DNA of 29,784 bases from a virus. The notes under the pieces were generated by a model. That model was not told the origin of the DNA. It ran no database searches and saw nothing but the letters and a program-made list of their open reading frames with translations. Position 1 is the first letter of the stretch, and each line of letters starts with the position of its first letter. Position numbers and translations under genes: made by a program. The DNA is taken from positions 1 to 29,784 of the IMG/VR virus record IMGVR_UViG_3300012920_000172. The stretch is one strand, 5' to 3'. Shown in pieces: positions 3,052 through 23,976 of this stretch.

Positions 3052-3666
3052 ATGTCAAAACAATTATTAACAGAATTTCATGAACTTTGCAAAGATGGTA
3101 TTTGTCGTGATCTTCTTTCCGAGAGAGAAAAGAGAGAGGTTGACAATGGTACTGTTTATTTGTCTGGTCGTATTCAAACTGCTGATAAGAAGAATGGAAA
3201 CGGAAGATCCTATCCCTATAAGGTATTGAAGCGCGAAGTTGACAACTATAGCAAGATTGTTAAAGATAATCGTGCATGCGGAGAGCTTGACCACCCTGAT
3301 GACTCCGTTATCAATCTTAAGAATGTCTCCCACATCGTCACAGATGTATGGTGGGAAGGTAAAGATGTTATGGGCAAGATCAAAGTACTAGATACACCTT
3401 CCGGTCGTATTCTCAAGGACTTGATTAATGCTGGTGTTAAACTTGGAATATCATCTCGTGGTCTTGGCTCTGTTAAGGAATCTATGGGCGGAGTAACAGA
3501 AGTTCAAGAAGACTTTGAACTTATTTGTTTTGACATTGTCTCCGAACCTTCAACGCCAAATGCTTATGTATACCCCAAAGCACAGCGTGGAATGTACGAG
3601 AACAAAATTAACGAAGCCAAAGAAAACATCGTTGATGATTTATTTAAGAAGATCTTAGAGGATTAA
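3052..3666 (+). CDS. gp21: Prohead core protease (T4 gp21-like, peptidase family S80)
   Basis: 204 residues, close to T4 gp21 (212 aa). The enzyme is the serine protease inside the prohead that cleaves scaffold and capsid proteins before DNA packaging. The catalytic His is in CGELDHPDD (His81), the nucleophile is in GISSRGLGS (Ser134/Ser135), and an Asp is in LICFDIVSEPS (Asp161), in the order expected for the herpesvirus-assemblin-like fold of S80. The early segment GRIQTADKKNGNGRSYP is also typical. The ATG has GGAG at 3042-3045. It begins a protease, hypothetical, hypothetical, bS21 gene run with very small gaps. In T4, gene 21 is directly followed by 22 and 23; here those lie 10 kb downstream. 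Confidence 0.95.
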   Translation: MSKQLLTEFHELCKDGICRDLLSEREKREVDNGTVYLSGRIQTADKKNGNGRSYPYKVLKREVDNYSKIVKDNRACGELDHPDDSVINLKNVSHIVTDVWWEGKDVMGKIKVLDTPSGRILKDLINAGVKLGISSRGLGSVKESMGGVTEVQEDFELICFDIVSEPSTPNAYVYPKAQRGMYENKINEAKENIVDDLFKKILED

Positions 3667-3669
3667 ACA

Positions 3670-4413
3670 ATGAAACTTACAACTGAACAAATAAGGCAAA
3701 TTATTGCCGAAGAACTACAAAAAGTTCTAATGACAGAGGGAATACAGAATCTTGTAAGATACCCACAGACCAATGGCTGGGAACTTTATGCCAAGCTTGT
3801 TGCTGATGCTTACAAAGCGGCTCCTTTACATGATGAAAAAGCTGTTGAGTCTTTCAAGATATTGGGAGCATTCTATGAGAAGATGTATCCAAAGATCACT
3901 AGAAAAGCTGTGAAGCCAAGACCTGTTGACTATCACCCTTACGATGTTGGTGGTGGCGTTGAGGATACAACTTCCGTGCATCGCTTGAGAAAAGACTATA
4001 AAGACACTGGAGGGTTTGAAGTTGCAAGAATTGATTCGGAACACCCTGTGTATTCTCCGGATGAAAACGTAAGAGCTCGTGTTATTCATGACTATATGTC
4101 TCACATACAGCCCAAACACGCGGCCGGTTTTGCTTCTCCTACTGAGCCGGGCTCTATACTTCAAGAGATCAAAGCATACAATATACACTTAAAGACAATA
4201 CCACCCAAAGGTGCACCTGCTCTCTTTACCGAGGTCCTCGGGCAAGTGTGTCATTTTTATGTATACGGTGATTTTATTGAACAGAAGGTTGCTTTCTTGC
4301 CCGGTTTTGATTATCACAATCCTGGGATAGTATATCCTGAGACCGGCTACAGAAACTCTGGTAGAATTCTTACGCCTATCCAAAAGCAACTACCCTTAGA
4401 CTCCGGAGAATAA
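3670..4413 (+). CDS. Unrecognised protein with amphipathic N-terminal helix; candidate head protein
   Basis: 247 residues, starting 3 nt after the protease stop, with GAGG within the protease's last codons. Residues 1-24 form a strongly amphipathic helix (LTTEQIRQIIAEELQKVL) ending in MTEG. This resembles the short capsid-targeting leaders that T4-type proteases remove from internal head proteins. The rest looks globular: a PRPVDYHPYDV segment, ENVRARVIHDYMSHI near residue 140, and a C-terminal core with TEVLGQVCHFYVYGDF and FLPGFDYHNPG. These His/Asp/Tyr-rich motifs look conserved, but I do not recognise an enzyme family. Position next to the prohead protease and the leader-like helix suggest an internal head or core protein; this is inference. 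Confidence 0.8.
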   Translation: MKLTTEQIRQIIAEELQKVLMTEGIQNLVRYPQTNGWELYAKLVADAYKAAPLHDEKAVESFKILGAFYEKMYPKITRKAVKPRPVDYHPYDVGGGVEDTTSVHRLRKDYKDTGGFEVARIDSEHPVYSPDENVRARVIHDYMSHIQPKHAAGFASPTEPGSILQEIKAYNIHLKTIPPKGAPALFTEVLGQVCHFYVYGDFIEQKVAFLPGFDYHNPGIVYPETGYRNSGRILTPIQKQLPLDSGE

Positions 4414-4836
4414 ATGAGCAATAAAAACGATTTAAAGAAAATATTGAAGCCTCTAATTAAAGAGTGTATCAAAGAAGTAATCTTTGAAGAGGGAGTCCTT
4501 TCGACTGTCATAACTGAAGTCATGAAAGGAACCTCTGGTTCTCAACGAATTGTTGAGACCGAAAGACCAAGACAAAAACAACAAAACTTTGTTGATCGTG
4601 AGAAGAAGTTGAAAGAAGCAAAAGCTAGAAAAAAGAAATTACTTGACTCAATTGGAAAAGATGCTTACAACGGTGTTGACCTGTTTGAAGGGACAACTGC
4701 GGCACCTGCACCCAGAACTGGTCAAGGACAAGGACCTCTAGATAGTGTTGCTCCTAACGATCCCGGTGTTGATATCTCCGGTATCTTCTCCGGCCATTCA
4801 GCAAAGATTTGGAAGAAACTATCAGGAAAGGATTAA
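4414..4836 (+). CDS. Small protein with basic-amphipathic N-terminus; putative head/core protein
   Basis: 140 residues, directly abutting the preceding gene; GGAG lies in CTCCGGAGAATAA just before the ATG. Residues 1-28 (LKKILKPLIKECIKEVIFEEG) form an amphipathic helix like that of the preceding protein. Residues 45-75 are highly charged and probably helical (coil). The C-terminal part is Pro/Gly-rich and ends in VDISGIFSGHSAKIWKKLSG, a tail I associate with hypothetical proteins beside head genes in marine T4-like phages. No catalytic motif is seen. A minor core component cleaved by the protease is a reasonable guess, unproven. The stop overlaps the bS21 start (TAATG). Confidence 0.78.
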   Translation: MSNKNDLKKILKPLIKECIKEVIFEEGVLSTVITEVMKGTSGSQRIVETERPRQKQQNFVDREKKLKEAKARKKKLLDSIGKDAYNGVDLFEGTTAAPAPRTGQGQGPLDSVAPNDPGVDISGIFSGHSAKIWKKLSGKD

Positions 4837-5051
4837 TGGCTTCAAGACTTACAATGAGACCTCGTCGCAACGAGAGCGGAGAACGTTTGATCAAACGATT
4901 CAGACGAAAAGTAAAAAAATTAGGATTGATGGAAGAGCAACGTGAAAGACGTTACTACACCAAGAAGTCCGACAAGAAAAGAAGAGCCAAGCAAAAGGCC
5001 ATAGCTCGTCGTAAAAAGCAAGAGCAAAAAGAAAAGAAAAACACTAATTAA
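4836..5051 (+). CDS. rpsU: Phage-encoded ribosomal protein bS21 homologue
   Basis: 71 residues. I start at ATG 4836, which overlaps the upstream stop (TAATG); a longer frame from 4809 is unnecessary. Ribosome site GGAAAGGA precedes it. The bS21 pattern is clear: ESGERLIKRFRRKVKKLG (helix 1, about 13-30), then LMEEQRERRYYTKKSDKKR (31-49), then a basic helix AKQKAIARRKKQ. It parallels cellular bS21: an acidic residue, xALRRFKR, xGxxxExRRRexYEKP, xRKRAK. bS21 sits on the 30S platform next to the anti-Shine-Dalgarno end of 16S rRNA and helps mRNA recruitment. bS21 genes have been reported in several aquatic phages. Placement inside the late structural operon suggests it alters host ribosomes when virion proteins are made; that role is inference. 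Confidence 0.88.
   Translation: MASRLTMRPRRNESGERLIKRFRRKVKKLGLMEEQRERRYYTKKSDKKRRAKQKAIARRKKQEQKEKKNTN
5043..5050 (+). promoter_or_regulatory. ACTAATTA box, variant of the candidate late-promoter motif
   Basis: One mismatch from ACTATTTA, found at other transcription-unit heads. It lies at the end of the bS21 gene, 28 nt before the ATG at 5071, the same spacing as the other boxes. It also forms part of a weak AT-only hairpin (ACTAA/TTAGT followed by Ts), so its meaning is uncertain. Confidence 0.35.
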
Positions 5052-5070: not shown

Positions 5071-5472
5071 ATGTCAACATTTAAATATACAGCGGGACTG
5101 AACAATGTCGGGTCCTATCAGGTATCGGGGGCACCATATGCCACAGGAAGCTTGGATGCCACAAGTACTATTTCCATAGAATTTCCATACGTGACTCAGT
5201 GGATAACAATTGTAAACCACGACAACAATCATTTGCGCATTGGTTTTTCAGAACTTGGTGTTGAAGGTACAAATTACTTTAGATGTGGACCACAAGCAGG
5301 AAATGAACATTCCCAGAACCTAACTATCAACGTTAAGGTTTCGGAAATTTGGCTTTCAGGCTCTACCGATTTTGATGTCGTTGCCGGCCTTACAAATTTA
5401 CCGGTAGCTAGAATAAACAATCTATCCGGTACTCTTGGGAATAACTGGTCTGGCTCCGTTGGCGTAGGCTAA
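5071..5472 (+). CDS. Putative virion structural protein (beta-rich)
   Basis: 133 residues, ATG with GGAG at 5062-5065. The sequence is rich in Gly, Ser, Thr and Asn with short alternating hydrophobic stretches (TSTISIEFPYVTQWITIVNH; LTINVKVSEIWLSG), pointing to a compact beta-sandwich. There is no membrane helix, no coil and no catalytic motif. It opens the fibre-like block, 10 nt before the 1296-aa gene, and shares its low-charge, Ser/Thr/Gly-rich composition. A decoration or fibre-base protein is likely by context, but I do not recognise the family. Confidence 0.72.
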   Translation: MSTFKYTAGLNNVGSYQVSGAPYATGSLDATSTISIEFPYVTQWITIVNHDNNHLRIGFSELGVEGTNYFRCGPQAGNEHSQNLTINVKVSEIWLSGSTDFDVVAGLTNLPVARINNLSGTLGNNWSGSVGVG

Positions 5473-5482
5473 GGGAGGTTAG

Positions 5483-8400
5483 ATGGCTGAATTCGGCTGG
5501 GCATATGTAGCTGGTGGTGCTATAACCGGGGCCCTAGGTCCTACTGGTTCTATATTACTTAAGAAAGGGGACACGGAGATAAGTGGCTCCCCTAGGCTTG
5601 TATTTGATACGGGATCATATGAACTACAGTTACAAGGAACCCTCTCAGCTAGTTCCGCGATTACGGCATCCAATCTAAATCTATATGGTGTCTCAGCAGG
5701 AACTCCCCCAAATACCTCAAGCTACCTTGCTGTTGACTCAAATTATAACCTGGTTTTGACATCTGCTGCTGGTGGAAGTGGTGGTGGAGGATCTGGTACG
5801 ATAGGTGCTGCGGAAGACGGAGATTATACAGACGGACTGTATACTGACTTTGTAACGACAACTCCGGTTGGCACAGCAATTGATAGGTTCAACGAGGTCC
5901 TTAAGATTCTTGCTCCAAGTCCAGCGCCGGCTCTTACCGAGATCAACTATGACAACTCCGCAGGTGTATCAGCTAAACTTTCATTCGGAGCATCAGCGGC
6001 TATAACTGATTATACATCCTCTGGTACAGCGGCTGGTTTTGATGCTGTTGATATTGGCGAAGTATATGAGAGCGACACCTCTGGCTCTAACTTTAGACTT
6101 GGCATCTACGATGGAACAACAGACGTAACTGGTTTCTTAAATTATTCAACGGTTGAATCTGTCAGCAATGGAAACCTAGCTTACTCTAATGATGCGTTTG
6201 GAAACGCCAATGAAGGCACACTCAAACTTGAACTCAATGGAACTATTATCCACTCTATTGCTCTATCTGGTCTTGCTGGATCTGGTGATCCAAACAGCGG
6301 ATCTGCTAACTCTTTAACCGGAGACTCTGGTTTTACGAACGTTTCCGTCACCGCTTCTTCCATCGATGGGAATGGGGCTGAATGGTACATCTTCAAACAT
6401 AGAACAGCGAAATATAAAATCGATGTAAATGAACAACTGGTCGGCTGGAACTATGCGAGAGTAATTCATACAATTGGTTCAACAGACTACGAGACCAACT
6501 ACGTTGAGTGGATTAACGATCCCTCAGGTGCAGTTGATGATTTGTCAATTACAAATGCTCGAATCGAAGACATCACAACAGAAGGTAGTGTGTACCTCTC
6601 CGGAGTTAAATATAATACACAACTTACTGCTAGCTACAAGGGCGAACTCAATAACATCTATAGAAACGTGTATCCAGATGGGACTCCCGTATCATTCAAC
6701 GCAACAAGAGCCACAACTCCAAGCGCTCAAGCATTGACAGATCTAACTGCTGGTAGCAATGATGAAACAGGGATTTTTCCAATAACGGGCACTTTCAATC
6801 TAAACGGGGTATTGAACCCTTCTCAGACGATTGGGCAAGGCATATCTGTTACACATCCATTAAAAGCAAATTTAGTTAATCAAGGATCGGCAACAGCAAC
6901 AGGCTTTTTGATTTACGACAGTACCCCTCCAACAACAACAAATCTTATCGAGACTTTCATCGATGAAGATTATCGCATTACATCAGCATCCTATATATCA
7001 CAACTTGAAGCCTCAAATGGTACATGGGACTCTGAGGTTCATCTAACATCAAGTGGATTATCCGGATACAATGATGGACTGGTTCAAATTGGAACATCAC
7101 AATACAGCGGCAGACTTTATAGTCCCATTGCCTCTGCTCTCCCTAACAGCGGAGACTTTTCTGCTCTTGCAAATGGAGACGCTGGAAACCCAGACTACTC
7201 TTCCGAGAGCGGAACAAGAACATACTTTAGAAAAATACAAAACACCTCGGGTGCTACCAAGTATGACATGGAGATCTCGACAACAAAGAATGGCACAACA
7301 TTCAATAACTCTGCTCTTGGAACTGGAAACGCACACTTTTACATAAAGATTCCCGGTGTAACCGGCTGGATGGACATCTCTCAAAACTTTGTCTACGGAT
7401 CTATAACAGATGGTGATGGTGCCTTGGTTTCTGGGGCTTCTAACGATACAGACTCTGGTAACAATACCCACCATATAACATTCGGTACAGCAGCAGTTGC
7501 AAATAATCAATACGTTGTTATAAAAATGGAAGCAGATGAGTCGTGGACAGGATACCTAGCACAGCTTCAATTCACATTCGGAGCCTCAAGTGAAACAGCG
7601 GCAAGTCCACAAGCCTTATCTGACATAGACGCAAATGATACTGGGACTAGTGCAAAGCTATCATTTGGCTCTTCAAATACAATTACTGATTATAGCAACG
7701 CGACAGGTTCTTCAATCTCGCTGACTAACTTTGACTCCAACGACTTATACTCTGTCTCCGGAGATAGACGAGGTATATTCTCCTCTGCTCCAACAATTGA
7801 CGGAGAGATAAACGATGGTATATCGGCTGATGGTGGTGGAGACTATCCATCCAAAGCTTTTGGCGATGCTTACGATGGTGATCTAATATTAGAAGTCAAT
7901 GGCTCTGAGGTTCACACAATAGATATTTCGAGCACATTATCGGCGATCAATACAACCAATGGTAATGGATCACGACTTAACGTAAGTGCTGTAAGTTTCT
8001 CGACAACATCAGATAGTATACCTGATTACAACAAACCTTATCGTACCGGTACTTATGAGATCGATCCAGCAGATCACAATGTTGGCTGGAATTATGCTCG
8101 TTTAATCCACAGAACAGGTGGCGGGGATACAGTTACAAATTATGTTGAGTGGGTTGTCGACCCCTCTGGTTCAACTGACGATACAGCTTTTGGAACAGCT
8201 ACATTAGCAAACTTCGATCACAATGATGTCTATTACCAATCAGGCATCGGCTACTTTGCTTCGAGGCCATCAGCTAGCTTTGATTTTCTAGCTAGAAATT
8301 TTTATCGCAATGTATACCAAAACGGTACAGCCATTAGTTTCCCAACAACAACAAACTGCTCTATCTCTAATATCCGCATAACTGGATCTGGGATTAATAC

Positions 8401-9373
8401 GTTTAACTCGGGTGTTTCATCAACATCAATGCCGGCACTAAATGACACTGCTGGTTGCGAAGTAGCTGACATTCATATAACTGGTACAGTTTTATTTGAT
8501 AGCCTTACTTCGATAAGCGGCGGACTTGGATTGTTTACTGACTATGATGTTTCGGTAACTGGTCGTGTTCTCCATCCATTCAAATCAGACAGAACAACAC
8601 CAACCACTTCTAAAACAGCATTCATGGTTTATTCAGGATCTATTGGGAGTACCAATCTTAATACCAATGAATACTTCAATACAGAGGACTATCGTATAGT
8701 TTCTGGGAACTATATCTCACAGTCTAATACAACATCATCGGCAAACGCTTGGGATTCAACATTATCAGTCAACGATGCTGGTGGAGAAGCCGCACATAGT
8801 GATGGCATGGTAACTGTTAATGGGTATGCCATTTCACCTCTTATGATTGGAAACGCTGGTGACACAAGAAACGCTGCTGATGGTGGTTCGCTTCAAGCCC
8901 CAAGTAGCAATCCAAACTACTCAACTTTGTCAAACAGCACGAGAACTTACTATAGATACTTTAGGAATAATTCTGGTCTTGCAAAAGCCACGTTCACCTT
9001 GACGCTGTATGGAGATGCGAATCTTATCTCAAAGTCTGGTGCTTTCTATACTGGTACACTTGGGGCAAATAAAAACATCCAAGTTGAACTTAAGGTTCCA
9101 TTTGATCCGGCCTTTACAGGATTGGATGACACTTCAACGGCATGGGGAGACTGTATCAAACCATATAGTGTTGGAACACAACCAGATTCAGATGGAGTTG
9201 GAATATTTAATGGGGGAGGAAGCGATCTCAATCAAACCGTGGGAGGATCTGGTCGAGACATAGCACTACAATTACAAGGCAAGCAAGTCAGAAGTAACCA
9301 GTACTTTGTTGTTAAGATATCAGCACATGAAGATTGGACTGGGTATCTATCTAGAATTGCGATAACATATTAG
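5483..9373 (+). CDS. Giant two-module fibre-like virion protein
   Basis: 1296 residues, ATG after GGGAGG (5473-5478). Architecture: an N-terminal ~95-residue region with beta-type fibre-like sequence; a GGSGGGGSG hinge (97-105); a linker containing TIGAAEDGDYTDGLYTDF and TAIDRFNEVLKILAP (106-145); then two homologous modules, residues 146-707 and 708-1296. Paired landmarks include SAKLSFG, VGWNYARVIH/VGWNYARLIH, TNYVEWINDPSG/TNYVEWVVDPSG, YRNVYPDGT/YRNVYQNGT, EDYRITSASYISQ/EDYRIVSGNYISQ and DESWTGYLAQL/HEDWTGYLSRI. Charge is low, with no membrane segments. The composition and the neighbouring fibre-like genes suggest a tail-fibre or head-surface protein, perhaps contacting the host. The N-terminal part would attach to the virion and the modules would project; this is inference. 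Confidence 0.85.
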   Translation: MAEFGWAYVAGGAITGALGPTGSILLKKGDTEISGSPRLVFDTGSYELQLQGTLSASSAITASNLNLYGVSAGTPPNTSSYLAVDSNYNLVLTSAAGGSGGGGSGTIGAAEDGDYTDGLYTDFVTTTPVGTAIDRFNEVLKILAPSPAPALTEINYDNSAGVSAKLSFGASAAITDYTSSGTAAGFDAVDIGEVYESDTSGSNFRLGIYDGTTDVTGFLNYSTVESVSNGNLAYSNDAFGNANEGTLKLELNGTIIHSIALSGLAGSGDPNSGSANSLTGDSGFTNVSVTASSIDGNGAEWYIFKHRTAKYKIDVNEQLVGWNYARVIHTIGSTDYETNYVEWINDPSGAVDDLSITNARIEDITTEGSVYLSGVKYNTQLTASYKGELNNIYRNVYPDGTPVSFNATRATTPSAQALTDLTAGSNDETGIFPITGTFNLNGVLNPSQTIGQGISVTHPLKANLVNQGSATATGFLIYDSTPPTTTNLIETFIDEDYRITSASYISQLEASNGTWDSEVHLTSSGLSGYNDGLVQIGTSQYSGRLYSPIASALPNSGDFSALANGDAGNPDYSSESGTRTYFRKIQNTSGATKYDMEISTTKNGTTFNNSALGTGNAHFYIKIPGVTGWMDISQNFVYGSITDGDGALVSGASNDTDSGNNTHHITFGTAAVANNQYVVIKMEADESWTGYLAQLQFTFGASSETAASPQALSDIDANDTGTSAKLSFGSSNTITDYSNATGSSISLTNFDSNDLYSVSGDRRGIFSSAPTIDGEINDGISADGGGDYPSKAFGDAYDGDLILEVNGSEVHTIDISSTLSAINTTNGNGSRLNVSAVSFSTTSDSIPDYNKPYRTGTYEIDPADHNVGWNYARLIHRTGGGDTVTNYVEWVVDPSGSTDDTAFGTATLANFDHNDVYYQSGIGYFASRPSASFDFLARNFYRNVYQNGTAISFPTTTNCSISNIRITGSGINTFNSGVSSTSMPALNDTAGCEVADIHITGTVLFDSLTSISGGLGLFTDYDVSVTGRVLHPFKSDRTTPTTSKTAFMVYSGSIGSTNLNTNEYFNTEDYRIVSGNYISQSNTTSSANAWDSTLSVNDAGGEAAHSDGMVTVNGYAISPLMIGNAGDTRNAADGGSLQAPSSNPNYSTLSNSTRTYYRYFRNNSGLAKATFTLTLYGDANLISKSGAFYTGTLGANKNIQVELKVPFDPAFTGLDDTSTAWGDCIKPYSVGTQPDSDGVGIFNGGGSDLNQTVGGSGRDIALQLQGKQVRSNQYFVVKISAHEDWTGYLSRIAITY
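5918..7603 (+). repeat. Module copy 1 (residues 146-707) of the giant fibre-like protein
   Basis: First copy of a ~570-residue protein module, aligned by eye from SPAPALTEI to GASSETAA. It is divergent from copy 2 at DNA level, so this is an old duplication rather than a recent tandem repeat. Confidence 0.8.
7604..9370 (+). repeat. Module copy 2 (residues 708-1296) of the giant fibre-like protein
   Basis: Second copy, from SPQALSDID to the C-terminus. Landmark motifs keep the same order as in copy 1. It is slightly longer (589 versus 562 residues) because of extra loops, e.g. around residues 945-1000 and 1215-1255. Confidence 0.8.
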
Positions 9374-14570: not shown

Positions 14571-14593
14571 ATATACTTTTGGAGGTTATTAAA

Positions 14594-16372
14594 ATGTCTA
14601 TAATTGAAACTCTTACAGAAGGCATCGTGAACCGCGACATGAAGAAAGAAGGCGCAGCTCTTCTTAATAAATGGTCAAAAACCGGTTTACTCGAAGGTCT
14701 TCAATCCGAGCATCAGAAGTCAACTATGGCTCGTCTGCTCGAGAACCAAGCGAAGGAACTCCTTCGTGAGGCAAACACAATGGAAGGTGGTAGCGTAGAA
14801 GGTTTTGCTGCTGTAGCTTTCCCAATCGTTCGTCGTGTATTCGCCGGACTTATCGCTAACGATCTTGTATCTGTTCAGCCCATGAGCCTTCCTTCTGGAC
14901 TCATCTTCTTTCTTGACTTCAAATTCGGTAGCCCTGCTGCTGGAAAGCAAAATACTGCTACCACAGATTCTATCTACGGTCAAGGAGTTCTTGGTTCACA
15001 AGTAACCGGTGGCGTTCAATTGACCAATGCCACAATGGACAAGCAACCATACGGCATGATGAGCGCTTATGCTTCTGCTACTGGTTCTGTCAATGGCACA
15101 AACCTTTGTGCTGATATTACAGAATATCTTGATGGAACTTCAATTACCACAGCTAACATTGATGGATCTCAACTGCTTTCAACCGTAATAGCTGGATCAG
15201 AAGGGGAGAAAGTAAAATCTCTCTTGAATTACGATCCTGATGTCCTTGCAAGTGGCTTTGCTTCAGCTAACTACGTTCGCTTTGTAACAATCACAAAGTC
15301 TGATCTTACTGACCTTAGCTCTGAACGTGGAAATCTTGAAAAGATCGATCTTAGCAATACCAATGCTGCACAGCTTGGTGGCGCTTCTGATGGAGCAACA
15401 CAAATTCGTCGTCTTCAGCGTGATCACAAAGGTCAATCTGGTGAGGTTCTAATGCCTATTTTTGGCACCAGTGCTCTTAACAGCCTTGACATCACTGATG
15501 TTACAGCTTCTTTCATGGTTAAGGATCATCTAACTCAATCAAACGCTCTTGGAAGTGTTATTGGTGGAAACTTCTTCCCTCTTGAAAATGAAACAGCAAT
15601 TCCAGAAATCGACATCAAAGTTGATTCAATCGCTATTACAGCTCAAACCAAGAAGCTGAAAGCAAAGTGGACTCCAGAACTTGGACAAGACTTGAATGCT
15701 TACCACAACTTGGATGCTGAAGTTGAATTGACTTCTATCCTTTCTGAGCAAATCGCTCTTGAAATTGATCGTGAGATTCTTTCTGATATCGTTAACGGTG
15801 CAACTGCTGGTACATTCTACTGGTCTCGTTCTCCTGGTCTCTTTGTTGATCGTGAAACTGGTGCTGAACTCGGTGCTGCTTCTGCTGCTCCTGATTTCAC
15901 CGGTACAGTTAGCGAATGGTATGAGACTCTCATTGAAACCATCAATGATGTTTCTGCTCAAATTCACCGTAAGACTCTTCGTGGTGGAGCTAACTTTGTT
16001 GTTGTTTCTCCTGAAGTTGCTAACATTCTTGAATTCACCAGCGGATTCCGTGCGAACGTAACTGCTGATGCTGACAAGGGTGATATCGGTGCTGTTAAGG
16101 TCGGCGCACTTAGCCGTAAGTTCGACGTTATTGTCGATCCTTACTTCCCACGCTCTGTGGTTCTTGTAGGACGCAAAGGAAGTTCTTTCCTTGAGTCTGG
16201 ATATGTATATGCTCCGTATGTACCACTCCAAACTACTCCTACAATCTTCGGACCAGAAGACTTTGTACCACGTAAGGGTGTCATGACTCGCTATGCGAAG
16301 AAAATGGTTCGCCCTGACATGTACGGTCTTGTTATCGTCCGTGGTCTTCTTGGTGAAGAAGGCGCTTCCTAA
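14594..16372 (+). CDS. gp23: Major capsid protein (T4 gp23-like)
   Basis: I start at ATG 14594, 8 nt after GGAGG (14581-14585); an in-frame TTG at 14579 overlaps the ribosome site and is rejected. 592 residues, HK97 fold expected. The precursor N-terminus holds LLNKWSKTGLLEGL and MARLLENQAKELL, like T4 gp23 (LLNKW, IFENQ). A likely gp21 cleavage lies near residue 64 (ANTMEGGS), ahead of FPIVRRVFAGLIANDLVSVQPM, the match of T4 MVRRAIPNLIAFDICGVQPM. Residues ~353-397 (KLKAKWTPELGQDLNAYHNL, ALEIDREIL) match T4's RQLKAAYSIELAQDLRAVHG region. The end GYVYAPYVPLQTTP and MTRYAKKM are also typical. Codons are strongly biased toward GCT, CTT and GGT, as expected for the most abundant virion protein. 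Confidence 0.97.
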   Translation: MSIIETLTEGIVNRDMKKEGAALLNKWSKTGLLEGLQSEHQKSTMARLLENQAKELLREANTMEGGSVEGFAAVAFPIVRRVFAGLIANDLVSVQPMSLPSGLIFFLDFKFGSPAAGKQNTATTDSIYGQGVLGSQVTGGVQLTNATMDKQPYGMMSAYASATGSVNGTNLCADITEYLDGTSITTANIDGSQLLSTVIAGSEGEKVKSLLNYDPDVLASGFASANYVRFVTITKSDLTDLSSERGNLEKIDLSNTNAAQLGGASDGATQIRRLQRDHKGQSGEVLMPIFGTSALNSLDITDVTASFMVKDHLTQSNALGSVIGGNFFPLENETAIPEIDIKVDSIAITAQTKKLKAKWTPELGQDLNAYHNLDAEVELTSILSEQIALEIDREILSDIVNGATAGTFYWSRSPGLFVDRETGAELGAASAAPDFTGTVSEWYETLIETINDVSAQIHRKTLRGGANFVVVSPEVANILEFTSGFRANVTADADKGDIGAVKVGALSRKFDVIVDPYFPRSVVLVGRKGSSFLESGYVYAPYVPLQTTPTIFGPEDFVPRKGVMTRYAKKMVRPDMYGLVIVRGLLGEEGAS

Positions 16373-20033: not shown

Positions 20034-22877
20034 ATGCCTAGCAAATTTGATTTTATATCACCCGACATCCTTCTTCGTGAAGTCGATTTGAGTGAAGTAC
20101 AACAAGACGTACAAGATGATGGTATTCTTATCATAGGATATGCCAAGAAAGGACCTGCTATGAAGCCAGTAAGAGTTTCTAGTATAGACGATCTTGAAGC
20201 AATCTTTGGTGCACCTCAACCTGGTGTTGATGTTGACGATGTTTGGAGAGATGGGAATTACGCCAATCCCACTTACGGTCTTTATGCAGCCAAAGCATGG
20301 CTTGCGTCTGAGACATCACCGGTTACGTTCATTCGTTTAGTTGGAGAGTCAACTAGTACAACTACCAAAGCCGGTTGGACTTTAGGAGGTGGAGCTTTCT
20401 CTGCTACTGATCCTGCTGCAAATACCACAGCTTATGGACTGTGGGTATGCCCTTCCGCTTCTTCTGGTAACAGTGCTGGTGGTTTGGCTGCTATTTTATA
20501 TGCCGAAGCTGCTGCTCTTACCCTCTCTGGAACAATAGCTGGTACATCTGACTTAACATCTTCCGCTGGTATGATGATCGTATCTGATGGGTCAGATTAT
20601 GGTGGGTTCACTTTAGAGGTTCACACTGCTGCTGGTACTAGTACAAAGCATAGCTTCTGTTTGGATCCCAATTCAAACCAAAACTTCATTAGAAGTGCTC
20701 TGAACACAAACCCACACGCACTCGCAAGTGCTGCTCAGAAAGACACAACTTATAAGTATTTCTTAGGTGAAACATTCGAAACTGACCTATACGAAAAGCT
20801 AAACACCGCCGGATCAGCATCTGCTGGTAAGCAATTTGGTATGATTCTTCCACTGGCTAAGCAAAGCGCAGCTGCAAACTGGATCAAGCATGAACGTGCG
20901 GCTGCTACTTCAAAGACTGGTTGGTTTATTGCTAATGATGCAGCTCCTCAATTAAACACAGGTTCTTTTGATTCCTCAAGTTTACAGAAGCTGTTCCGCC
21001 TAGAATCACTTCATGAAGGAGAAGACTTCCAAAAGAATTACGCTGTTCGTGTTAAGCTTGAGAAGGTTGGTACAAACGCTTCACCAGACTCTTTGTTCGG
21101 AATTGAAATCCTACAGAAGGACGCTCTAGGAACCTTCCGTGTTGTTGAATCCTACAGCTCTTGTAACTTAAATGAAAATAGTGATGACTTCATTGCCAAG
21201 AAGATTGGTGATATGAGCATGTCATATGACTCTACTAAAGAAAAATATATAACCACAGGAAAGTATCCTAACAGATCAAGCTATGTTCGTGTTGACATGG
21301 ACACCAACTACAAATCTGTTGGGCGCGGTGCTCTTCCGTTTGGCTTCTATGGCCCAACTAAACCTAAAGCATTCAGTATCACATCAGGCTCTGCTGCTCT
21401 AGCTTCGGGCGCAAGTACAGCATACGTAATGTCAGCTATCAATTCATCCATCTATGGTGGTCACGATGCGGCTTCACAATTTGCAAAGTTTGAATCAGAC
21501 GTTACAGCTTCTTTCTCATGGCCAGAACTCAGATTAACAGACAGTGGCTCCAATAATGGTAACCACTACAGCAAAACCAAAGACTTCGGTATTCGTCATT
21601 ACCGCTCTAATGTTTCTCAAGGTCCTCGACTCTATGGAAACATAAGCAACGATTATCTAGATCTAGTAAGAATATTGCCTAGTGGACTAGACATTCACAC
21701 AGCAGGTACAGATCTCGAGAATTCTTTCATCTTTAGCTTTGATGAAATTGTACAAGATGCTACCAACTCAAACAAATACTATTATAAAGAAGGCTCTCAT
21801 GCCGACGGAACAGCTTACACAGCTTTGAATGGTACTGCTGCTCTTATCGAGACAGCTGAGGTAACTAAGTTCGTTGCTCCTTTCTTTGGAGGATTCGATG
21901 GAACAAACGTGTCTCATGTTGACCCATTCTCAAGTCCTAAGCGCCTTGCTTCACAAAGCGAGATTAGTCATTATGCTTATGCTGCTATGCATAAGATGAT
22001 TGACTCTGTTAAGAATGCTGAGACAATACAATATGAAGTTGTTTCTATTCCCGGTCTAACTAACACTAGTCTTGTACAAGACCTAATCGACAATACAGAA
22101 GAAAGAGGAGACTCTTTAGCTATCGTTGATGTTGACTCTGGTTACAAAGGGTCTCATGAGTACAACACTGCTGGTAAGAATGACGGATCAGTTTCTACTA
22201 TCGTTACCAATATCAAAGCTCAAGATTATGATACAAGCTATGCTGCTTGCTACTATCCAGAAATACAGTTAACTTCCGAAGAAGGTAGCGCTATACTTCC
22301 ACCTTCTGTTGCTGGTATCGGTGCTCTAGGTTCATCGGATGCTGCTTCTGGTGCTCCTTGGTTTGCCCCAGCTGGGTTTAACCGTGGTGGTATCAAAGAG
22401 CTTGGTGGCTCTAAAGGACCAAAAGTTGCAAAGGCTCGCGAAAGTCTTTTGAAGTCTGATCGTGACAAGCTTTATCAAGTTGATATCAACCCAATTGCTA
22501 ACTTCCCAGCGGAAGGACCAGTTGTGTTCGGACAGAAGACTCTTCAACAGACTGCTTCTGCTCTTGATCGCATCAATGTTCGTCGTCTTATGATCTATCT
22601 GAAGAAGCGTATCGGCGCTGTTGCTCGCACAATCCTGTTTGACAACAATGTGAACGCTACTTGGAATCGTTTCAAGGCTGGTGCTAACCCAATCCTTTCA
22701 GACGCTAAGTCTCGCTTTGGTTTGGCTGAGTACAAGTTGATTCTTGACGAGACAACAACAACACCTGATTACATCGATCGTAACATCATGTATGCTAAGG
22801 TTTTCATCAAACCAGCGTATGCAATTGAGTTTATCGCAATCGATTTCAACATCACAAGCTCCGGAATTGAGTTCTAA
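20034..22877 (+). CDS. gp18: Contractile tail sheath protein (T4 gp18-like), enlarged
   Basis: 947 residues against 659 in T4, ATG with AAGGAG at 20020-20025. The N-terminus (SPDILLREVDLSEVQQDVQD, GILIIGYAKKGPAMKPVRV, DDLEAIFG) and the C-terminal domain (about 827-947: DRINVRRLMIYLKKRIGAVA, TLFDNN-type strand, DYIDRNIMYAKVFIKPAYAI, FIAIDFNITSSG) are the conserved sheath core, matching T4's SFDRINVRRLFIVLEKAI and FYVKPVKPIEYIILNF. The C-terminal subdomain lies against the tube and interlocks neighbouring sheath subunits. The extra length is in the middle (about 115-640), with Ala/Ser/Thr-rich stretches that probably form surface domains on the outer sheath. It is transcribed from its own candidate promoter. 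Confidence 0.95.
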   Translation: MPSKFDFISPDILLREVDLSEVQQDVQDDGILIIGYAKKGPAMKPVRVSSIDDLEAIFGAPQPGVDVDDVWRDGNYANPTYGLYAAKAWLASETSPVTFIRLVGESTSTTTKAGWTLGGGAFSATDPAANTTAYGLWVCPSASSGNSAGGLAAILYAEAAALTLSGTIAGTSDLTSSAGMMIVSDGSDYGGFTLEVHTAAGTSTKHSFCLDPNSNQNFIRSALNTNPHALASAAQKDTTYKYFLGETFETDLYEKLNTAGSASAGKQFGMILPLAKQSAAANWIKHERAAATSKTGWFIANDAAPQLNTGSFDSSSLQKLFRLESLHEGEDFQKNYAVRVKLEKVGTNASPDSLFGIEILQKDALGTFRVVESYSSCNLNENSDDFIAKKIGDMSMSYDSTKEKYITTGKYPNRSSYVRVDMDTNYKSVGRGALPFGFYGPTKPKAFSITSGSAALASGASTAYVMSAINSSIYGGHDAASQFAKFESDVTASFSWPELRLTDSGSNNGNHYSKTKDFGIRHYRSNVSQGPRLYGNISNDYLDLVRILPSGLDIHTAGTDLENSFIFSFDEIVQDATNSNKYYYKEGSHADGTAYTALNGTAALIETAEVTKFVAPFFGGFDGTNVSHVDPFSSPKRLASQSEISHYAYAAMHKMIDSVKNAETIQYEVVSIPGLTNTSLVQDLIDNTEERGDSLAIVDVDSGYKGSHEYNTAGKNDGSVSTIVTNIKAQDYDTSYAACYYPEIQLTSEEGSAILPPSVAGIGALGSSDAASGAPWFAPAGFNRGGIKELGGSKGPKVAKARESLLKSDRDKLYQVDINPIANFPAEGPVVFGQKTLQQTASALDRINVRRLMIYLKKRIGAVARTILFDNNVNATWNRFKAGANPILSDAKSRFGLAEYKLILDETTTTPDYIDRNIMYAKVFIKPAYAIEFIAIDFNITSSGIEF

Positions 22878-22885
22878 ACTATTTA
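22878..22885 (+). promoter_or_regulatory. ACTATTTA box, candidate late promoter of the tail tube
   Basis: An exact box starting at the last base of the sheath stop codon and 32 nt before ATG 22910. No terminator precedes it, so the tube gene could be expressed both from here and by read-through. Confidence 0.48.
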
Positions 22886-22909
22886 CAGTATAATAGGAGA
22901 AAATATACA

Positions 22910-23473
22910 ATGGCTAATTTTTGGACAAGCAATAATGTAGAACCCAAGAGAAATTTTAGATTTAAAGTGCAAATCACAGGACTTGGAGGCGCTGATGTTC
23001 TTTGGTGGGCTAAGACAGTCACCACACCATCTTTCGATGTTTCTGAAACAGAGCACAACTATCTGGATAATAAATTTTATTTTCCTGGTCGCGTTTCTTG
23101 GAATGAAGTATCTTTGTCTCTTGTGGATCCGATCTCCGTTGATGCTGTGGCGTTGACTAATGAGTTGCTCACTAGCCAAGGATATGTGGTTCCAACAAAT
23201 GCTGATGACAACGTTACAATGTCTAAGGCTAAAGGAACTGTAGCTCTTGGCGACATCACTATCACAGTATTTGGTGCTGAGGGTGATGAGATAGAAGTAT
23301 GGACTTTGAGACACCCGTTCATCAAGTCTGCTAAGTATGGTGACTTAGATTACAGCAATGATGATCTACGAACCGTAGAGATGACCTTGCGATACGATTG
23401 GGCTTCCTGTACGATAAAAGGTACTAAGAGTCCCAAATCAGGAACAAACTACTTCTCAGGCCCTGGTATCTAG
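22910..23473 (+). CDS. gp19: Tail tube protein (T4 gp19-like)
   Basis: 187 residues (T4 gp19 has 163), ATG with AGGAG at 22894-22898. Typical tube-protein order: an N-terminal NNVEPKRNFRFKVQITGLGG strand; VLWWAKTVTTPSFDVSETEH; the loop NKFYFPGRVSWNEVSLSLVD; a long helix-loop with NELLTSQGYVVPTN; WTLRHPFIKSAKYGDLDYSN; and a final strand VEMTLRYDWASC. Hexameric rings of such proteins stack into the inner tube of the tail, under the sheath encoded just upstream. The C-terminal ~20 residues (KGTKSPKSGTNYFSGPG) extend beyond the paralogue that follows. Confidence 0.92.
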   Translation: MANFWTSNNVEPKRNFRFKVQITGLGGADVLWWAKTVTTPSFDVSETEHNYLDNKFYFPGRVSWNEVSLSLVDPISVDAVALTNELLTSQGYVVPTNADDNVTMSKAKGTVALGDITITVFGAEGDEIEVWTLRHPFIKSAKYGDLDYSNDDLRTVEMTLRYDWASCTIKGTKSPKSGTNYFSGPGI

Positions 23474-23484
23474 TAGAGGTATAG

Positions 23485-23976
23485 ATGGCTTTCTGGTCAA
23501 ATAACACACTTGAACCACTACGCAAGTTTCGTTTTAAAGTGACATTTGCAGGCGATACTATATGGTATGCTAAGTCTGTTACACAGCCCTCTCCAGAGGT
23601 TTCTATGTCCGAGCATCAGCTTATCAATCATAAGATAAAGTACCCCGGTATTGTAACTTGGAATGACATTGATATTGTTATTGTAGACAGTGTTGATGAA
23701 GGTAGGGGTAAAAATTATTATGGTAATCTTTTAAATTCCGGATATAGATTTGACGGACAAACTGCGGACGGAATAATGAAGAAAGCCAAGCATACAAACA
23801 ATAATGTAACAAATGTTTTAATAGAGCAGTTGAGAGCAGATGGAGATGTTCATCAAACATGGGAACTTATAAATCCATTTGTAAAATCAGTTAAATTTGG
23901 AGACCTTGATTATTCTTCAGATGATCTCCTTGAAATAACAATAACCGTTGCATATGACTCAGCAACATTAACTTAA
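23485..23976 (+). CDS. Second tail-tube-fold protein (gp19 paralogue)
   Basis: 163 residues, ATG with AGAGG at 23474-23478, 11 nt after the tube gene. It is clearly paralogous to the preceding protein: NNTLEPLRKFRFKVTFAG, IWYAKSVTQPSPEVSMSEH, KIKYPGIVTWNDIDIVIVD, LLNSGYRF, WELINPFVKSVKFGDLDYSS, LEITITVAYDSA. Divergence is substantial, so this is an old duplication. In T4 the tube-fold proteins gp54 and gp48 start the tube on the baseplate; one copy here could be the bulk tube subunit and the other an initiator or minor ring protein. Which is which cannot be told from sequence alone; the stronger ribosome site and candidate promoter favour the first copy as major. Confidence 0.88.
   Translation: MAFWSNNTLEPLRKFRFKVTFAGDTIWYAKSVTQPSPEVSMSEHQLINHKIKYPGIVTWNDIDIVIVDSVDEGRGKNYYGNLLNSGYRFDGQTADGIMKKAKHTNNNVTNVLIEQLRADGDVHQTWELINPFVKSVKFGDLDYSSDDLLEITITVAYDSATLT

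Follow-up and report, generated by a model that had tools for sequence, protein, structure and literature searches.

A bS21 Gene among the Head Genes of a T4-Like Phage

What is a ribosomal protein gene doing among the head genes of a phage? We analyzed the IMG/VR virus record IMGVR_UViG_3300012920_000172 over its full 29.8 kb (positions 1 to 29,784; hereafter the window), which comes from a T4-like phage and carries a gene for ribosomal protein bS21 (rpsU; 4836..5051, plus strand). The open reading frame (ORF) encodes 71 amino acids plus a stop codon. A first-pass annotation, made from the letters alone, had recognized the bS21 pattern in this product and had named a family-profile search and a structure prediction as checks; both upheld it. 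The Pfam family Ribosomal_S21 (PF01165) matches with an E-value of 8.8e-11 and 41.8 bits against a gathering cut-off of 27, and the alignment covers profile positions 4–54 of 55. The protein also matches PHROG 21469 (“ribosomal protein S21”; E 2.6e-8) and 27 distinct PDB chains, all of them bS21 (best E 2.4e-7). It is short and strongly basic (computed pI 11.6, net charge +22), and an AlphaFold2 model based on nine bS21 relatives contains three helices joined by turns (residues 15–29, 33–40, and 44–70; mean pLDDT 78), as in bS21. By its sequence and predicted fold, then, the product is a true bS21.

The sequence differs considerably from the cellular bS21 copies with which we compared it. Nine close relatives share 67–99% identity with it, and distant ones go down to ~39%. 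Where dN/dS could be computed among relatives, it lay between 0.007 and 0.14—a mark of purifying selection, which shows that the ORF is not a product of chance. A tblastn search of isolated phages with the window protein returned no match; because the query is short, rich in lysine and arginine, and was filtered, this empty result is not evidence of absence, and annotated phage bS21s among the isolated phages were indeed retrieved with a different bS21 query.

The gene lies between two hallmark head genes on the same strand: the S77 prohead core protease of the T4 gp21 family (3052..3666; PF03420, 117.9 bits; PHROG 207) and the major capsid protein of the gp23 family (14579..16372; PHROG 138, E 6e-74). 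Farther downstream is a gp18-type tail sheath (20034..22877, plus strand; PHROG 23, E 2e-55), which together with the tail tubes spans 20034–23976; the window also encodes a baseplate hub. The placement of bS21 inside the late structural region, as first annotated, is thus borne out. A 141-kb relative, G004 (IMGVR_UViG_3300033273_000658), adds a gp17-type terminase and a gp20-type portal to the T4-like gene set. Judged by terminase (taken from G004), capsid, protease, and sheath, the closest isolated relatives include Flavobacterium phage immuto and Microcystis phage Mel-JY01.

Constant Order of Protease, Partner, and bS21 Genes

Directly upstream of bS21 is a 140-amino acid partner gene (4414..4836, plus strand), whose stop codon overlaps the bS21 start codon by one nucleotide as TAATG. 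The ribosome-binding region of bS21 (4816..4835; AGGAAAGGATTA before the ATG, duplex of -4.9 kcal/mol) therefore lies within the 3' end of the partner. Of 11 close relatives, 10 share this 1-nt TAATG overlap and the other one has TGATG. Translational coupling to a head-assembly gene had been proposed for the window; the overlap stands, while the head-assembly role of the coupled gene is a matter of conjecture, as neither Pfam nor PHROG matches the partner. A Pfam search with the partner family was likewise without result, and a search of Rfam gave nothing useful. The family has an invariant [LI]FEG motif, which we take to resemble the T4 gp21 cleavage consensus, and its structure model is helical, of low confidence, and disordered in the middle. 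A reasonable conjecture is that the partner encodes a prohead core protein.

How constant is this arrangement? Searching IMG/VR with the partner matched 581 or more related loci, and we examined the best 80 per search in two sets; being anchored on the partner, these searches cover partner-bearing loci and not the frequency of bS21 loss in phages with other partners. Wherever enough sequence was present, bS21 lay downstream of the partner (78/78 and 76/76 loci, or 154 loci on 146 distinct contigs), and always on the same strand (154/154). It directly adjoins the partner in 146 loci (78 in the first set and 68 in the second) and stands 1.1–1.5 kb away in the remaining eight. In the first set, bS21 starts between -10 and +4 nt from the partner stop, with a 1-nt overlap in 45 of the 78 loci; start codons nearest the partner stop were picked, which favors small offsets, and the conserved N-termini (MA[TNS]N...) back these choices. 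The protease was found upstream on the same strand, 0.4–2.2 kb from bS21, in 22 of 23 contigs searched, and the 23rd contig is cut off.

Divergence of bS21 correlates with protease divergence (r = 0.84, 18 sequences) and with partner divergence (r = 0.88, 23 sequences), and in neither case did any of 5,000 permutations reach as high a value. Thus, bS21 appears to have been inherited vertically rather than captured repeatedly. Judged from these contigs, the order of protease, 140-amino acid partner, and bS21 is essentially fixed in this lineage, and this constancy is a new addition to what has been described for phage bS21.

Shine-Dalgarno Use and the Host

bS21 sits next to the anti-Shine-Dalgarno sequence of the ribosome, and the first-pass annotation had noted strong GGAG/GAGG sites on most genes of the window. 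They are there: 81% of window genes are preceded by GGAG, GAGG, or AGGA, and in 78% the duplex with the anti-Shine-Dalgarno sequence is -4.5 kcal/mol or stronger, compared with 20% at internal ATGs. In a set of 49 loci with bS21, this energy is attained by a median fraction of 0.73 (range 0.31–0.92). The fraction of genes with Shine-Dalgarno (SD) sites in other phages is 7% in immuto, 33% in Mel-JY01, and 57% (with a core 4-mer) in T4. T4 is not known to encode bS21, and we did not find it in the 50 kb of T4 that we searched.

Are these sites a mark of virion mRNAs? In G004, late structural genes average -7.19 kcal/mol and replication/metabolism genes (50–80 kb) -7.32 kcal/mol (P = 0.39); late genes compared with all other genes (-6.02 kcal/mol) gave P = 0.09. 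Because late and replication genes are equal in this respect, strong SD sites are a property of the whole genome and not a label on virion mRNAs. SD sites also precede DNA polymerase, uvsX, nrd, and groEL, all of which should be expressed ahead of bS21, so unmodified host ribosomes must already be able to read those genes.

In Flavobacterium johnsoniae, Tyr54 of bS21 helps to hide the anti-SD, and mutation or loss of bS21 alters SD preference (PMC9976891). The corresponding position was aromatic in 61/61 phage bS21s of Chen et al. (PMC9723584). In the window protein it is Ala57 (ungapped match to the bS21 of 7JIL), and among 63 unique relatives it is Ala in 49, Arg in 12, Gln in 1, and Ser in 1—aromatic in none. 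The window gene is thus not of the Bacteroidia type. High SD use together with the nonaromatic residue suggests that the host is probably an SD-using bacterium and not a member of the Bacteroidota. A Bacteroidota host, suggested by relatedness to immuto, is unlikely on these same two grounds. Unmasking of the anti-SD in such a host by a bS21 with Ala in place of Tyr54 would explain both facts, but it fits poorly with the presence of SD sites on replication genes. A scan of genome contigs found phage-type bS21 on only one contig of a metagenome-assembled genome, from Maricaulis (NZMJ01000169.1, L054:1262-1504). Elsewhere in that genome there is a much stronger second bS21 match, and the contig is probably a phage contig binned with its host; being probably phage itself, it does not identify a host for this lineage.

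Neighboring Genes and Other Features of the Lineage

Between the protease and the partner is a gene (3670..4413, plus strand) whose product matches PHROG 3170 (function unknown) and begins with MKLTTEQIRQIIAEEL. Its N-terminal peptide, MKLTxxxL(K/R)xLIKEEL, also opens nine otherwise unrelated proteins across G004 (9/187 proteins, compared with 1/707 at internal Met) and was not found in immuto, T4, or Pelagibacter phage HTVC008M. It may be a head-targeting peptide that is cut by the S77 protease. Downstream of bS21, a virion-like protein gene (5071..5472, plus strand; SD TTGGAG), with no family match by Pfam or PHROG, is followed by a gene for a huge virion-like protein of 1,296–1,369 amino acids (window 5483-9373; L005 10097-14206), which is conserved between the window and G004 and has no Pfam or PHROG match either.

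G004 is itself T4-like; it encodes UvsX, ribonucleotide reductase, a phage DNA polymerase of PHROG 405, and its own GroEL (the latter two at L021:8216-11641 and L021:17565-19139). GroEL is also present in immuto and in Bacteroides phages. A second translation-related gene of this phage lineage is a transfer-messenger RNA in G004 (L021:5498-5883) with the tag ANNNNYFEVAQAA.

Possible Functions of the Phage bS21

What might the phage gain from its own bS21? We consider it likely, counting nonselective versions of the idea, that the protein substitutes into host 30S subunits late in infection. A vertically inherited bS21 would be produced late and at a high level, with translational coupling linking its output to that of the adjoining gene; it would enter the 30S subunit at the bS21 site beside the anti-SD, and there keep or retune translation initiation while virion proteins are synthesized, sustaining phage translation generally. 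Late expression is suggested by the position of the gene and by the transcripts that Chen et al. reported for other phages (PMC9723584), and incorporation by the behavior of a pelagiphage bS21 in Escherichia coli (PMC6375957); a benefit to phage translation is presumed. One result weighs against this reading: in E. coli, where a single phage bS21 has been tried, ribosomes retained only ~5% of their activity (PMC6375957), so that improved translation by a phage bS21 is unproven. A Foldseek search of the short helical model against the PDB returned no match, which is uninformative.

How selective would such a replacement be? According to the first-pass annotation, bS21 and strong SD sites together bias 30S subunits toward virion mRNAs. 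The location of bS21 in the late structural block has held up, but the bias is unsupported. In its favor are the position of bS21 beside the anti-SD, the shift in SD preference upon mutation or loss of bS21 in F. johnsoniae (PMC9976891), and the strong SD sites on most window genes. However, SD strength is the same in late and replication genes of G004, genes due for translation before bS21 exists have such sites too, SD use is similar in T4, for which no bS21 is known, and the lack of the ASD-hiding residue leaves no obvious switch; we regard selective reprogramming as unlikely. A plainer possibility, which we hold tentatively and which overlaps with the favored explanation as its nonselective version, is that bS21, being loosely held and assembled late, becomes limiting after host shut-down and is simply replaced by the phage. 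The uniformity of SD sites across phage gene classes fits this well, and coupling to its late neighbor might furnish the protein in many copies, yet plain replacement would not need the considerable divergence from the cellular copies compared.

Among other roles, Chen et al. put forward packaging (PMC9723584), in which bS21 would travel inside the head alongside core proteins and act when the next host is entered; the adjoining prohead protease and possible core protein, as well as the strongly basic character of bS21, are compatible with this, but bS21 lacks the MKLTxxxLKxLIKEEL-type N-terminus of other proteins in these phages, and we judge packaging quite improbable. We give still less credence to shut-off, in which the phage protein poisons host ribosomes and stops host translation: the loss of activity in E. 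coli ribosomes in vitro would agree with it (PMC6375957), but that loss may reflect a mismatch with E. coli, according to its authors, and a gene in the late block would be badly placed for shut-off, which would hurt virion production. Because partner precedes bS21 in every testable locus and the two diverge in step, one can also imagine the partner as a dedicated helper—for example, displacing host bS21 or loading the phage copy—with the pair remodeling ribosomes across a large aquatic T4-like lineage; this is a very long shot. On the favored substitution into host ribosomes, a ribosomal protein kept as a fixed, co-transcribable neighbor of head genes in a widespread lineage suggests that late ribosome control is a core function rather than an occasional acquisition.

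Comparison with Known Systems

How does this lineage relate to phages already known to carry bS21? Mizuno et al. (2019) identified bS21 as the most frequent ribosomal protein of viruses, chiefly aquatic ones, and showed that the bS21 of pelagiphage HTVC008M enters E. coli ribosomes (PMC6375957). Chen et al. (2022) reported phage bS21 genes near terminase (TerL), portal, prohead protease, and capsid genes, with late transcription alongside structural genes, and proposed ribosome substitution, a preference for phage mRNAs, and possible virion packaging (PMC9723584). Phage bS21, its location among head genes, its late expression, and the model in which it replaces host bS21 and favors phage mRNAs are thus already published. 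A prohead protease lies nearby in 310 of the 900 published bS21 phages in the survey of Chen et al. (PMC9723584), which probably includes the lineage described here.

The Bacteroidetes lake phages of Chen et al. resemble the window phage in that bS21 is found near TerL and the portal, protease, and capsid genes and has a proposed late role. In those phages, however, bS21 runs opposite to the structural genes and is invariably aromatic at the Tyr54 position, whereas in the window lineage it shares their strand, is never aromatic there, is coupled to the upstream gene, and occurs in loci that are mostly rich in SD sites. The phages studied here apparently infect hosts that use SD sites, and their bS21s do not have the Bacteroidia residue; for these reasons, the published Bacteroidetes-based model with its hidden anti-SD is not simply transferable to them. 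Pelagibacter phages HTVC008M and Mosig also encode bS21, but beside CobS/AAA, Hsp20, and clamp-loader genes instead of head genes. By TerL (45%), capsid, and protease, Flavobacterium phage immuto (MW353175) ranks with the closest isolated relatives, but no bS21 was found in it and its SD sites are nearly absent.

Related by capsid, terminase, and sheath, the 484-kb uncultured phage LR756508 has a previously unannotated bS21 (L148:31678-31953; Pfam, 39.5 bits) ~2 kb upstream of its capsid gene. Several phage-labeled records (for example, OR850381, OR847736, CAKLQH020000004, and AGRM01000002) look bacterial, with cellular bS21 or GroEL and tiny or very large unannotated pieces.

A further comparison is with Mel-JY01 (PP395634), an isolated T4-like phage in which an S77 protease, one small gene, an annotated rpsU, and then a capsid gene occur in the same order and on the same strand as in the window. 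Its bS21 is divergent, its small upstream gene has no BLAST match to the window partner, and its SD use is weaker, but it has been isolated and its host is named (Microcystis), which makes the question testable at the bench. The window bS21 is, in sum, a further case of an already described phenomenon, with a remarkably constant gene order; what it adds of most use is a gene trio that hardly varies, a departure from the Bacteroidetes model, and, in Mel-JY01, an isolated phage in which to test the idea.
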